From Enteractinococcus fodinae (GTDB taxonomy: Bacteria; Actinomycetota; Actinomycetes; Actinomycetales; Micrococcaceae), in the NCBI RefSeq assembly GCF_031458395.1, contig NZ_JAVDYJ010000001.1, forward strand, positions 2,170,001 through 2,234,000: DNA of 64,000 nt. The letters run 5' to 3'. The notes under the pieces were generated by a model. That model was not told the DNA's origin, ran no database searches, and saw only the letters and a list, made by a program, of their open reading frames with translations. A program made the position numbers and the translations under genes. Each line of letters opens with the position of its first letter. Within the stretch, counting starts at the first letter, position 1. Positions 35,917-62,838 of the stretch are shown piece after piece.

Positions 35917-36912
35917 ATGCAGAGATTCTTCCCGGGGTTGGCCGTCGCTTTCGCTGCGGCCGGACTGTCATGGGTGATCGCCTGGTTGTTGGGACCAATC
36001 TTTCCCGGAGTTTCGGCGCTCCTGGTGGCCATTATCCTGGGAGTCGTATGGCGCAATGTGGCACCGGTCCCCTGGTCGTTCAACCCCGGCTTAGCGGTTG
36101 CGGCCAAACCCATCTTGCGGCTTGGCATCGTCCTGTTAGGTTTCCAACTGTCGCTGACGCAAATCTTTGCGTTGGGGTGGCCGGTCATCGTCGTCATCTG
36201 TGCGGCGGTGGTCGTGACCTTTAGTCTCACAGTGGCACTGGGACGGTTACTGCATATCCCCACGAAATTAACGCTGCTGATCGCATCCGGGTTTTCTATT
36301 TGCGGTGCCGCGGCAGTTGCCGGGGCCGACAGTGTGTTGCGCCCCAAGAAAGAACATTCGGCGACCGCTTTGGGACTGGTCGTGCTCAATGGGACGCTGA
36401 TGATCGCGGTGATGCCGGTCCTCTTTGCCCTGTTTTCGCCAGATCCGGTGACGGCCGGGGTGTGGACCGGTGCGGCTGTGCACGAGGTGGCCCAAGTGGT
36501 GGCGGTCGGCCAGAATCTTGGCGACGAGGGGTTACAGGTCGCGGTGACCGTCAAACTGGGGCGAGTGCTGTTGCTGGCGCTGGTACTGGCGGTGCTAGCA
36601 ATGTATATGCGCACCAGCCACACCACAGCCGAATCGACCGGTGCGAAGCGCCCACCTTTAGTGCCGCTGTTCGTGGTCGGTTTCGCTGCGGCCATGCTCC
36701 TGCGGACTTTTGAGGTGGTACCGGAGGCGTTACTGGATGCTGCGGCCATCCTGCAGACCATCATGTTAACCGCGGCGATGTTTGCCTTGGGTATGGGCGT
36801 GCACCTGAAATCACTGCTGCAGGTGGGTGGCAAACCGGTGATTTTGTCTGTACTGTCCACCGTGGTCGTGACCGTGATCGGTGGGCTTGGAGCCTTCTGG
36901 GCCACTCAGTAG
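35917..36912 (+). CDS. YeiH-family (UPF0324) putative membrane transporter
   Basis: The 331-residue protein has about ten helices and the YeiH pattern: PGVSALLVAIILGVVWRN, AKPILRLGIVLLGFQLSL, IASGFSICGAAAVAGADSVLRPKKEHSATALG, and FALGMGVHLKSLLQVGGKPV. Some members have been called sulfate or sulfite exporters, but the substrate is uncertain. TAAGCT is 7 nt before the ATG, so the gene is probably leaderless. Its stop overlaps the convergent asparaginase stop by 7 bp. Confidence 0.88.
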   Translation: MQRFFPGLAVAFAAAGLSWVIAWLLGPIFPGVSALLVAIILGVVWRNVAPVPWSFNPGLAVAAKPILRLGIVLLGFQLSLTQIFALGWPVIVVICAAVVVTFSLTVALGRLLHIPTKLTLLIASGFSICGAAAVAGADSVLRPKKEHSATALGLVVLNGTLMIAVMPVLFALFSPDPVTAGVWTGAAVHEVAQVVAVGQNLGDEGLQVAVTVKLGRVLLLALVLAVLAMYMRTSHTTAESTGAKRPPLVPLFVVGFAAAMLLRTFEVVPEALLDAAAILQTIMLTAAMFALGMGVHLKSLLQVGGKPVILSVLSTVVVTVIGGLGAFWATQ

Positions 36913-37895
36913 GTGGCAACCACCTCGGTGCTTTGCTCGGGCGTGAGTCCCTGAGCTAGACACAGCTGCAGCAAGACTTTGGCCTTGGCCGCGGTGATGT
37001 CCGTGTTTGGGATCAATCCGCGCGAGATGAGCCCAGACCGCGGCGTCACGGCTGGTTCGAATACACCACGGGAGGCCTGGACCACTTGAATGCCTTGGGC
37101 CACGGCCGCATCGACGGCGTCATCCATGGGTCGAGTCAGCGTTCCAGGCGGGTACCCTACGGCGACCAGTCCGCGCGCCCCTGCATTGATAAACGCTTCC
37201 ACAGCCGTCGCGTCGGCACCCGTGTACGCGTGCACTATGTCGACTCTGGGTAGCGGGGTGGTCAGCTCGGCGAAACGTGATTGTTGGGTGTGCGGCGTGG
37301 TCGGCGAGCGCCAGTACTGCACCCGATGGTCTGCCCCGAGGACTCCGAGGGGTCCGCGCACCGGGGATTGCAACGCATCCAAGCGGTGATTGGCAACCTT
37401 GGTCACGTCCCGGGCGCTGTGGATTTCACGGTTCATCACCACCGTGACGCCCCGGGCATGTGAGTCCCGATGGGCTGCGATCCGGAAGGCATCGGCCAAA
37501 TTGCGTTGAACATCGGAGCCCGTCGTGGATCCGGGACGCTGCGCTCCGACCATCACGATCGGTTTGGCGCTCTTGACAACCAAGTGCAAAAACCAGGCGG
37601 TTTCTTCCAACGTTCCCGTCCCGTGCGCCACGACCGCACCGGCGATCTCCGGCTGGGCCAGGACGTGGGTGAGTCGATGGGCAAGCTCAGCCCAGTGTGC
37701 TGCCGTGATGTATTTGGAACGCAACGCGCCGAACGGTTCGACCCGAATCTCGGCAATCTCACGCAGCTCCGGGTGGGCCGCGATCAGCTCATCGGCCTCC
37801 ATTACGGTCCCGTGATCGAGATAATCCAGGTAGTTCTCGGGTCCGGTACCGCGGTTGGCTATCGTGCCTCCGGTGCCAAAAAATGCAATGGTCAT
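36906..37895 (-). CDS. L-asparaginase
   Basis: The 329-residue enzyme hydrolyses L-asparagine to aspartate and ammonia. The first catalytic Thr is in GTGGTIANRG (residues ~7-16), the second in VVAHGTGTLEETAWFLHLVV with the HGTGT-E pattern, followed by VMVGAQRPGSTTGSDVQRNLADAF. No signal peptide is visible, so a cytoplasmic (type I-like) enzyme is likely. The start has GGAGGAG upstream and is divergent from the YihY gene. Confidence 0.92.
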   Translation of the reverse strand: MTIAFFGTGGTIANRGTGPENYLDYLDHGTVMEADELIAAHPELREIAEIRVEPFGALRSKYITAAHWAELAHRLTHVLAQPEIAGAVVAHGTGTLEETAWFLHLVVKSAKPIVMVGAQRPGSTTGSDVQRNLADAFRIAAHRDSHARGVTVVMNREIHSARDVTKVANHRLDALQSPVRGPLGVLGADHRVQYWRSPTTPHTQQSRFAELTTPLPRVDIVHAYTGADATAVEAFINAGARGLVAVGYPPGTLTRPMDDAVDAAVAQGIQVVQASRGVFEPAVTPRSGLISRGLIPNTDITAAKAKVLLQLCLAQGLTPEQSTEVVATY

Positions 37896-60190: not shown

Positions 60191-61717
60191 ATGTTGGGTT
60201 CAGATTTCGATGTAACCGGTACCGAAACCGTTCGCCAAACAGGCCAAACCTTCCTCGAAAAACTTCGCGCCGAGGATCAGCATCCTGGCCCGCACGGGGC
60301 GACCCCGTTTCCGATCGCCAGTGATATCACCGGTCTGGCATTGCGATATCATCCCGGCTCCCAAGTACGATTCTTAGAACCATGTCTTGGCACCGGTATC
60401 TTCTTTTCCACCCTGCTCCACGAAGCAGATAACCGCGGCGACGAGCTGGAAATCGTTGCAGCCCACGGTGTCGAACGCGAAGAACAATTTGCCGTGTTAG
60501 CGCATGACCTCTGGGCGCCTGCCGGGTTAACGGTGCACGAGCTGGACTTTTTGAGCTTGGGTGCATCCGATGCGCCCAAAGCCACGATGGTGTTGTCTCG
60601 TCCCCCGGTGACACAACATCACCGGCTGTCGTCAGACCTCAAAATACGCGCCGCCGATGCAGCAGAAGCCGCAACCGGTATCCGCCCGACCGGCCTCACG
60701 GACCTGTATAACCACTTCGTGTTGGCCACCCACCAGTTCCTAGCTGACGGTGCGGTCTCCGCCTGGCTATTGCCGACGAAATTCTTGCATCACAGCGCAG
60801 GTCAGGCAACGCGCACCTATCTGGCTACAAAGGTCCGAATGCAGCGCATTCACAATTTTGAAAGCGGCGCCCTGGGCTTCAGCGGCTACCGCGAAGAAAT
60901 CCTTGACTGGTCACTCGTGGTCTTCACCAACGAGCCCGCCAAACCAACCGACACGGTCGAGCTCACTGGCGGGGAAATTTTTGGTGCCGACACCAACACC
61001 ACCGTCACCTATGAGGAACTCAACTCAAGCACGGATTGGACCGAATACTGGCACAACAGTGATCCAACGCTCACCAAACCGCCGACGCTGGAGGACTTTT
61101 TCTTCATCCGACGCGGGTGGGAGGTACCCGGCGGTGACTTCTTTATCGAGTCCGAAAACCGTGCCTGGGCGTTCGGGATTCAGCCCTTCCACATGCATCC
61201 GATGCTGCCCCCGCCTGAAGATGTCACCACCGAGATCATTGAAGCCGACCAGTGGGGGTACCCGGTCGGTGAAGACCGAAAAGTCATCCTCACCGCCCAC
61301 GACGATGAAAACATCTTAGAAGACAAAGATCCAGCGTTGCTGCGGTACCTACAGTCAGCCAACGGTGACACTCGCGCAGCAGCGAAACGCCCGGAATCAC
61401 AACTGTGGTACAGCCTGCATCTACGTCGTCCGGCGCCCATCCTGGTCCAGCCGGCCACCGAAGAAGACCCCGGGCCCTTCCGCTTTATTATCAACGAATC
61501 AGAGGGCATCGCCGGGCCCGGGTGGATCACCATGTCACCGAATCTTGGTTTCGCCAAACCATGGTTTTTAGATAATGACATCGACTGGCACGAACTCGTC
61601 AAAATTTTAGCGTCCATCCCCGCCCCGGATGGCTCCACTAAGCCTGAGCTTTTACCCTCTGTGGTGGCTTCGTTGGACGCAACCGGGGTTGCCGATTGGC
61701 TTGCCGGTTTCGACTAG
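60191..61717 (+). CDS. DNA N6-adenine methyltransferase-like protein with degenerate catalytic motif
   Basis: The 508-residue protein follows the class I, Eco57I-like N6-adenine DNA methyltransferase layout. The SAM-binding motif I is intact: FLEPCLGTGIFFSTLL (residues 61 on). The catalytic motif IV, normally (N/D)PP(Y/F), reads SRPPV (residues 136-140). The region after it, GLTDLYNHFVLATHQFLADGAVSAWLLPTKFLHHSAGQATRTYLATKVRMQRIHNFE, matches the family well. The C-terminal ~200 residues are target-recognition-like. AAGGAGGCAGG precedes the ATG, so it is well translated. No nuclease gene is beside it; it looks like an exapted or inactive orphan. Confidence 0.72.
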   Translation: MLGSDFDVTGTETVRQTGQTFLEKLRAEDQHPGPHGATPFPIASDITGLALRYHPGSQVRFLEPCLGTGIFFSTLLHEADNRGDELEIVAAHGVEREEQFAVLAHDLWAPAGLTVHELDFLSLGASDAPKATMVLSRPPVTQHHRLSSDLKIRAADAAEAATGIRPTGLTDLYNHFVLATHQFLADGAVSAWLLPTKFLHHSAGQATRTYLATKVRMQRIHNFESGALGFSGYREEILDWSLVVFTNEPAKPTDTVELTGGEIFGADTNTTVTYEELNSSTDWTEYWHNSDPTLTKPPTLEDFFFIRRGWEVPGGDFFIESENRAWAFGIQPFHMHPMLPPPEDVTTEIIEADQWGYPVGEDRKVILTAHDDENILEDKDPALLRYLQSANGDTRAAAKRPESQLWYSLHLRRPAPILVQPATEEDPGPFRFIINESEGIAGPGWITMSPNLGFAKPWFLDNDIDWHELVKILASIPAPDGSTKPELLPSVVASLDATGVADWLAGFD

Positions 61718-61861: not shown

Positions 61862-62110
61862 ATGCCCACAATCGTCGTCGAAGTCATGCCGAAACCAGAA
61901 GTGCTTGACCCGCAAGGTAAAGCCATCGATGCTCGGCTGCCCGAACTCGGGTTTCGCGAGTTTTCCGCCGTCCGACAAGGCAAACGCTTTGAACTGACCG
62001 TCGAAGGCGAAGTCACCGACGACGTCTTGGATCGTGCCAGAACCTTGGCAGCAGAATTATTCGCTAACCCCTCGACCGAATATATTGCCAACGTCGAGGT
62101 GGCCAAATGA
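61862..62110 (+). CDS. purS: Phosphoribosylformylglycinamidine synthase subunit PurS
   Basis: PurS is the small bridging subunit of the FGAM synthase (PurSQL), step four of purine synthesis. The 82-residue protein has MPKPEVLDPQGKAIDARLPELGF and VRQGKRFELTVEG, both typical. The ATG at 61862 has AGGAG upstream. A TAAAAT -10 box lies at 61817-61822. Its stop overlaps purQ by four bases (ATGA). It looks normal, unlike purQ. Confidence 0.95.
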   Translation: MPTIVVEVMPKPEVLDPQGKAIDARLPELGFREFSAVRQGKRFELTVEGEVTDDVLDRARTLAAELFANPSTEYIANVEVAK

Positions 62111-62838
62111 GCGAACCCAACATTGGCGTCGTAATGTTCGACGCGGCAACCGATGCGGCCTCGGTCATTCGAGCCGTCGAGCTGGCCGGTGGCACACCGG
62201 TCACCTTGCACCCCAAGACAACGGTCGCCCCGGACCTGGCCGACCTCTCTGTGGTCATTCTGCCGGGCGGATTTTCCTACGGTGACTATCTCCGGGCCGG
62301 CGCCCTGGCGGCGACGCAGCCGATCATGCGGGTCCTGGCGGAAGCCGTCGAAGCCGAAGAGATCACCGTTATCGGATTGGGCAATGGCTTCCAAGTACTG
62401 ACTGAAGCAGGCCTGCTACCGGGTGCGTTTGTCGCCAACGCCACCCCCCGATACCACCACACCGAAGTGGACTTCATTATCGCCAATAACAGCTCGGCCA
62501 TGACCAACGCCTATGAACTCGGCCAACAAGTTCGCCTCGTCCAAAAAGGCGCCTACGCCCAGTACACCGCGACAGCCCAAGAGCTGGAAGCGCTCGAAGA
62601 ACGAGGCAATGTACTCATCCGCGCCAAAGACTCTGCAACCGGTTCCGATATTGCGGGAATTAGCTCGGCTGACGGCCTGGTGTTGGGACTGATGGCAAGC
62701 CCAGAGTATGCGATCGAAGAAGGCTTCGGAACAGACCATCCAGACGGCCCCGGTATGGGTGTGGATGGTCAAGGATTATTTGTCTCAGTTGTGCGTGCTG
62801 CCGGTGCGATCAACGGTGAAGGAGTTGTCGGTGAGTAA
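62107..62838 (+). CDS. purQ: PurQ-like glutaminase subunit lacking the catalytic Cys and His
   Basis: PurQ should release ammonia from glutamine for FGAM synthase. The 243-residue protein is full length and in frame, with [20 protein letters not shown] intact. The nucleophile elbow, normally GxCNGFQ, is GLGNGFQ: Gly92 replaces the Cys. The catalytic His region, normally PHPE, is ASPE: Ser198 replaces His; Glu200 is kept. The DQH-type segment is also changed to [14 protein letters not shown]. The start ATG overlaps the purS stop. Either the complex uses free ammonia, or another amidotransferase supplies it, or this is a diverged paralogue. Confidence 0.88.

Follow-up and report, generated by a model that had tools for sequence, protein, structure and literature searches.

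The purS-purQ-purL Locus

The window, i.e., the whole stretch of 64,000 nucleotides of Enteractinococcus fodinae DNA that was analyzed, ends within a group of genes that encode the components of FGAM synthase (Table 1). The genes are found in the order purS-purQ-purL, as in typical PurQ loci; the purS stop codon overlaps the purQ start codon as ATGA, and the GTG start codon of purL (at 62831) is located inside the 3' end of purQ. The purQ reading frame is intact and complete (243 codons), and both this frame and its neighbors bear out the original prediction of a full-length, in-frame gene in the usual order. An open reading frame of 508 residues found 5' of purS (60191-61717, plus strand) was matched by neither Pfam nor NCBIfam models at E up to 0.001.

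Table 1. Features of the FGAM synthase locus, in window coordinates
Feature	Position	Strand	Remarks
purS, small structural subunit of FGAM synthase	61862..62110	+	Pfam PurS, E 1.5e-20; start ATG at 61862
purQ-derived subunit, proposed pseudo-glutaminase, 243 aa	62107..62838	+	NF002957, 169.8 bits; cut-off 212
purQ codon 92, GGC (Gly), nucleophile (Cys) site	62380..62382	+	
purQ codon 198, AGC (Ser), catalytic His site	62698..62700	+	
purL, FGAM synthetase subunit, 766 aa in genome	62831..64000, continues past window end	+	NF002290

The purQ product is homologous to the PurQ family (TIGR01737 / NF002957), as seen from profile matches and from an alignment with PurQ of T. maritima (3d54_D). In this alignment, Gly92, which is part of a GLGNGFQ segment, is found at the position of the Cys of GICNGFQ, and Ser198, in MASPE, at that of the His of MPHPE. 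These replacements, as well as the corresponding codons, agree with the earlier claim that both catalytic residues are absent. The Glu of the triad (E200, PE motif) is fully kept in PurQ of the genus, and so is a PurQ strand of 11 residues. A structure of the protein predicted using AlphaFold (pLDDT 82.7, pTM 0.85) gave 3d54_D as the best match in the PDB, with a TM score of 0.90 by target length; because 28 of the 29 sequences in the underlying alignment were canonical, the alignment is biased toward the PurQ fold. The model suggests that the window PurQ keeps this fold, in line with the earlier remark that the remainder of the fold is recognizable. Thus, the protein is like its counterpart in the T. 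maritima PurLQS complex (PDB 3d54) in its predicted fold, gene order, 11-residue strand and triad Glu. It differs in the absence of the Cys and the His, in segments that are altered elsewhere, and in scores below the cut-offs of both curated models, i.e., NF002957 (Table 1) and TIGR01737 (137.6 vs 177.8 bits).

Distribution of the Loss and Selection on purQ

The best PurQ match falls below the cut-off in all nine genomes of the genus. The Cys site is occupied by Gly in 9/9 of these proteins (one copy ends at a contig end), the His site is occupied by Ser or Asn in all eight full-length copies, and none of the eight contains a Cys anywhere in the protein. From other genera, 110 loci were collected, which were the best-scoring ones and not a random draw, and 102 of them were readable (8 unreadable); here, the Cys is found in 101 and the His in all 102, and the 30 loci with the best scores all display GICNGFQ and GLMPHPE. 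The exception is an isolated case, a PurQ from a metagenome bin of Mycolicibacterium sp. (L096) with Tyr for Cys and an intact His, perhaps the result of a sequencing error. Of 89 columns that are at least 95% conserved outside the genus, 24 are never matched and 52 are fully kept in the eight full-length genus sequences. In the family as a whole, 285 of 295 sampled genomes (the nine of the genus included) exceed the PurQ cut-off; the tenth genome below it is probably G036, which is 82% complete and has two partial-scoring matches.

Because the Cys is lost in 9/9 genomes and the His in 8/8 full-length copies, chance or error is excluded, which confirms the earlier argument that a double loss speaks against a sequencing error. 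A pseudogene is likewise ruled out by a loss that is shared by all nine genomes with open frames. The question raised with the original prediction, i.e., whether related PurQs show the same loss, is answered by the alignment; the loss is common to the whole genus. The median pairwise dN/dS of purQ is 0.100 (8 sequences, 27 of 28 pairs finite), a rough value that covers the genus sequences alone and was obtained at a median dS of 1.5, i.e., near saturation. The gene is under purifying selection.

Trees of PurQ and PurL were constructed from 16 genomes, five of which belong to the genus; of the 18 outgroup loci, 11 could be used. The genus forms one clade in both trees (100/100). Its stem has a length of 0.88 in the PurL tree, and in the PurQ tree the branches on either side of the midpoint root sum to 3.5; because this stem is too long, PurQ itself cannot be placed. 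The genus PurL groups with the Micrococcaceae rows (100/100) and lies within them with support (82/96) that is less than firm. Horizontal replacement was considered and is not supported, with PurL clustering with Micrococcaceae in a tree that includes no other Micrococcales families.

Search for a Second Glutaminase

The genome that harbors the window consists of one contig of 2,932,870 bp. A protein query returned one match only, the window gene, in the whole contig at E up to 10, and a search with the family model yielded the window gene (169 bits) and five weak matches, each at most 21.7 bits. Four of these five were inspected as candidates for a second purQ and rejected; one is HisH, and we take the other three to be two DJ-1/PfpI-like proteins and one PuuD-like protein. 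The fifth is an 897-aa frame with E 0.135. The Pfam class I amidotransferase model identified five places at E up to 0.001, including CarA, GuaA and HisH; we assume, from their motifs, that the remaining two are a PuuD-like hydrolase and a free-standing type 1 amidotransferase. The class I motif is intact in HisH, the PuuD-like hydrolase and the free-standing protein (C1:2553295, partly masked). Hence, the search for a second purQ or a fused purL glutaminase, which had been put forward as a check of the original prediction, found none in the one-contig genome using protein, family-model and Pfam searches.

Other Amidotransferases of the Genus

The loss is not restricted to PurQ. CarA is devoid of the Cys (GIGLGHQ) and has YYPE in all eight genomes where it was found. 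In the glutaminase domain of GuaA, the nucleophile is replaced by Gly in four and by Ser in two of the six proteins read (Ser in the genome of the window), and WNP or WDP is found instead of HPE; the site positions in CarA and GuaA were confirmed by alignments with PDB structures. Five of five PabA-PabB fusions, identified by motif match, have Gly for Cys, and at the His site they display Asp (four cases) or an altered segment (the fifth). A search of the window's own genome with the Pfam class I amidotransferase model gave no PabA-PabB fusion at E 0.001. An AsnB-like protein starts with MSAIVA, i.e., Cys2 is replaced by Ser, in both genomes where it was found. In contrast to the glutaminase domains, the synthetase portions show no such damage (1582 bits for CarB and 449.5 bits for the C-terminal domain of GuaA). 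For five GuaA sequences, dN/dS is 0.136 in the glutaminase domain vs 0.033 in the synthetase domain, i.e., the former is constrained, although less so than the latter. The Cys-less CarA and GuaA still score above the NCBIfam cut-offs of glutamine-hydrolyzing families, and the loss would therefore be hidden from automatic annotation.

Three further enzymes were not detected in the genus at the sensitivity used. In 9/9 genus genomes the synthetase domain of PyrG was unmatched and no protein exceeded the full-length cut-off. PyrG passed the cut-off in 28 of 31 family genomes of other genera, the exceptions being G019, G024 and the incomplete G036; G019 and G024, which are at least 99% complete, also gave no GltB. 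GlmS exceeded the cut-off in none of the nine genus genomes vs 16/16 genomes of other genera, and GltB in none of the nine vs 12/16. A NagB-like gene (partial read, below NCBIfam cut-offs) is found near the gene for the Cys-less AsnB-like protein. NagB can run in reverse with ammonia, and the NagB-like gene may for this reason stand in for GlmS.

Other enzymes keep their nucleophile. HisH has both the Cys and the His in all seven proteins read, PurF retains its N-terminal Cys in 8/8 genus loci, and a class II glutaminase domain retains MCGIAG in 9/9 genomes. Since these three proteins keep the Cys, glutamine is not wholly abandoned; GlnA-type genes are also found in all nine genus genomes. In PurF of the genus (L220 and seven further loci), RYSTTG is changed to RYG(S/A) and the His of HNGN is lost; a canonical PurF was read in four of six outgroup loci. 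Judged from these motifs, the genus PurF glutaminase may or may not be working.

In the window's genome the class II domain (L262, G000 C1:414000-430000) adjoins GlnA-like, Amt-like and glutamate-synthase-like genes. This cluster comprises two type III GlnA-like genes, an Amt-like gene, the intact class II domain, and FwdC-like (GXGXG) and FMN glutamate-synthase-like proteins. The cluster resembles a synthase for glutamate, or perhaps for N-methylglutamate, that is split into separate genes. In an N-acetylglutaminylglutamine amidotransferase (L198-L201; family model run on the G000 copy) the nucleophile position holds Cys, Cys, Ser and Thr in four species, in each case with one extra codon after the ATG. 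The pattern reads as if the loss were still in progress; alternatively, a different start could give an N-terminal Cys. The window also contains an L-asparaginase-like gene (36906-37895, minus strand; TIGR00520 245 bits, below cut-off), a possible internal source of ammonia.

The Partner Subunit PurL

PurL of the genus matches NF002290 with 914.9 bits (cut-off 648; whole gene) and shares no more than 69% identity with any other PurL sequence compared. In a set of 41 PurL sequences from outside the genus, 271 columns are conserved to 97% or more; at 20 of these a different residue is fixed in 5/5 genus sequences, and individual genus sequences depart at 20-22 near-invariant sites. Cys59, found in 41/41 canonical PurL sequences beside His58 in the SEHC motif, is replaced by Thr, and Cys519 (also 41/41) is replaced by Gly in 5/5 genus sequences and in G593 (see below). 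When each of the 41 canonical sequences was held out as a control, the median number of departing columns was 4 and the maximum 18, and these columns coincided with the genus sites about four times as often as expected (62 vs 15.6, summed). A re-tuning of PurL, which the 20 changed sites had seemed to indicate, is weakened by this control; because held-out canonical sequences vary similarly, the count of changes is no proof. We retain only the replacement of Cys519 by Gly as a possible pointer to co-adaptation of PurL.

A Second Lineage

In a sample of the order, 396 genomes were searched with the genus profile, which gave a match in 327, and 38 loci from outside the genus were read. Of the 19 best of these (L174-L192), 18 are canonical and one is dead, and 19 further, chosen loci (L303-L321) are all canonical. 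The dead PurQ (L178, also L302; G593 C3:145348-146019) belongs to another family of the order and has GIGNGFQ and ASPE, i.e., the same replacements, Cys by Gly and His by Ser, as in the window's genus. The gene is located between purS- and purL-like genes, as read by eye. G593 PurL is 55% identical to genus PurL and up to 66% identical to others, and because of the former value the two PurQ losses appear to be independent.

Of the 271 conserved columns, 24 are changed in the G593 PurL, and seven of these belong to the 20 sites changed in the genus, against an expectation of 1.8 (hypergeometric P 6e-4). This overlap is explained by sites that change easily, because an equal, fourfold excess is seen with the held-out canonical sequences. 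The shared replacement of Cys519 by Gly could indicate that co-adaptation took place more than once, with a single genome, G593, as the second case. A search for other amidotransferases in G593, covering 0.70 of about 2.1 Mb with 11 queries (one of them GuaB and one an unconfirmed GltB), gave a single weak match, that of the GuaB query to what is presumably a CBS-domain-like protein.

Proposed Function of PurQ

From the above data, the loss is real, genus-wide, found in a gene under selection, part of a broader loss of glutaminase chemistry and, for PurQ, repeated at least once. In the absence of the nucleophile no glutamyl-thioester can be formed and, therefore, class I hydrolysis of glutamine would not be possible. 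The original prediction, which stated this conclusion and that ammonia or another donor would have to be used, fits the loss of the catalytic sites and a genome where neither a second purQ nor a fused purL was found. We consider it likely that purQ became a pseudo-glutaminase that is kept as a structural or allosteric partner of a synthetase taking free ammonia. According to this model, PurL would use cytosolic free ammonia to form FGAM, and PurQ would hold PurL in a working form or act as the ammonia entry; PurQ was probably retained because PurL needs a PurQ-shaped partner for assembly, gating or ammonia admission. The use of free ammonia by PurL is proposed because related synthetases are able to work with ammonia supplied from outside; CPS1 is the worked example of a glutaminase domain that is dead but kept.

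Vertebrate CPS1 keeps a dead glutaminase-like domain without the Cys, and ammonia is its substrate (PMC4655335). Similarly, PurQ of the genus is a glutaminase domain that is kept after loss of its nucleophile, and its synthetase partner PurL scores over the cut-off, with Cys59 and Cys519 replaced. Unlike CPS1, which is a single enzyme of ammonia disposal, the genus involves several biosynthetic enzymes in one bacterial lineage, and the Cys is replaced by Gly in PurQ, CarA and PabA, in contrast to Ser in CPS1. Archaeal PurF' is, like genus PurQ, an amidotransferase homologue without the nucleophile, for which use of ammonia was proposed (PMC3261824); as described there, however, it is a class II enzyme found in archaea, whereas PurQ belongs to class I. 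The same source reports that archaeal PurQ has fully conserved Cys and Glu, with the His replaced by Asn in two Thaumarchaeota only, and that E. coli PurF without the Cys can use external ammonia (PMC3261824). GMP synthetase is described to use external ammonia in vitro (PMC10526850), and for the single-domain NAD synthetase of bacteria ammonia is given as the physiological donor (PMC3376133). With the latter enzyme genus PurL would share ammonia as the donor, which for PurL is a proposal; the NAD synthetase has no glutaminase part, unlike the enzymes of the genus, where the dead domain is kept. A literature search, mostly outside the subscription journals, revealed no report of a case such as that described here.

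The glutaminase parts of CarA, GuaA, PabA-PabB and the AsnB-like protein would have gone the same way as PurQ and, because several sister enzymes lost their glutaminase chemistry, ammonia may have largely taken the place of glutamine as amide donor in the lineage. In its most far-reaching form, to which we give about an even chance, the genus replaced glutamine by ammonia for synthesis of FGAM, carbamoyl phosphate, GMP, aminodeoxychorismate and asparagine and lost the standard synthases for CTP, glucosamine-6-phosphate and glutamate. The glutaminase domains would then be ammonia ports or regulatory subunits, and CTP would be obtained via an unrecognized enzyme or by obligate salvage. The recurrence of Gly (PurQ of both lineages, CarA, PabA and most GuaA) leads us to guess that a small residue may ease entry of ammonia. 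The niche is plausibly alkaline and ammonia-rich. Animal faeces and soil are the main sources of Enteractinococcus, which grows at pH 7-11, and Enteractinococcus helveticum was obtained from sewage granules upon selection for ammonia-tolerant bacteria (PMC4966478). A high supply of ammonia would fit the proposed use of ammonia.

Alternative Explanations

Glutamine analogues of the azaserine, DON and acivicin type alkylate Cys nucleophiles, and they hit HisH and PurF too. Escape from such antibiotics could have removed the nucleophiles, with the use of ammonia as a by-product. Precisely the residues that these compounds attack are lost, in class I and class II enzymes alike (PurQ, CarA and PabA now have Gly, GuaA has Gly or Ser, and the AsnB-like protein has Ser), but the Cys is still found in HisH and PurF, which are also targets, and our literature search showed no such case; we regard this scenario as unlikely.

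The chance is somewhat slimmer that another, intact amidotransferase feeds ammonia to PurL, such that the complex would be indirectly glutamine-dependent. Three proteins in the window's genome have an intact class I motif (HisH, the PuuD-like hydrolase and the free-standing type 1 amidotransferase at C1:2553295), the last of which could act in trans. However, a single partner would have to serve PurL, CarB, GuaA and PabB, each still equipped with a pseudo-domain or subunit of its own, and no extra purQ-like gene was found in the genome.

Decay of the genes in an organism that lives by salvage and does not need de novo synthesis would account for the undetected PyrG, GlmS and GltB and for the long PurQ stem. 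We find it improbable to a greater degree, given the purQ dN/dS of 0.10 and the intact frames across the genus, as well as purL, purD, purF, purM, carB and guaA that all score over the family cut-offs. A new substrate or role of the PurSQL complex that is unconnected with FGAM, at which the Thr and Gly found at the otherwise invariant Cys59 and Cys519 of PurL (both Cys in 41/41 canonical sequences) might hint, is hardly credible: PurL exceeds the cut-off of its family by a wide margin, purM and further genes of the pathway are present, and the searches revealed no alternative glutaminase for FGAM synthase.

Implications

That glutamine amidotransferases channel ammonia derived from glutamine is a textbook rule of nucleotide synthesis. 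The data also serve as a warning, because CarA and GuaA, although Cys-less, are still assigned by curated models to glutamine-hydrolyzing families, and they raise the question of how CTP is synthesized without a recognizable CTP synthase. With a second lineage that displays the same PurQ replacements, the change becomes testable as a case of repeated evolution. In the pseudo-glutaminase model favored above, the genus would show, in examples shaped by natural selection, how a synthetase may run on free ammonia with its glutaminase domain kept.
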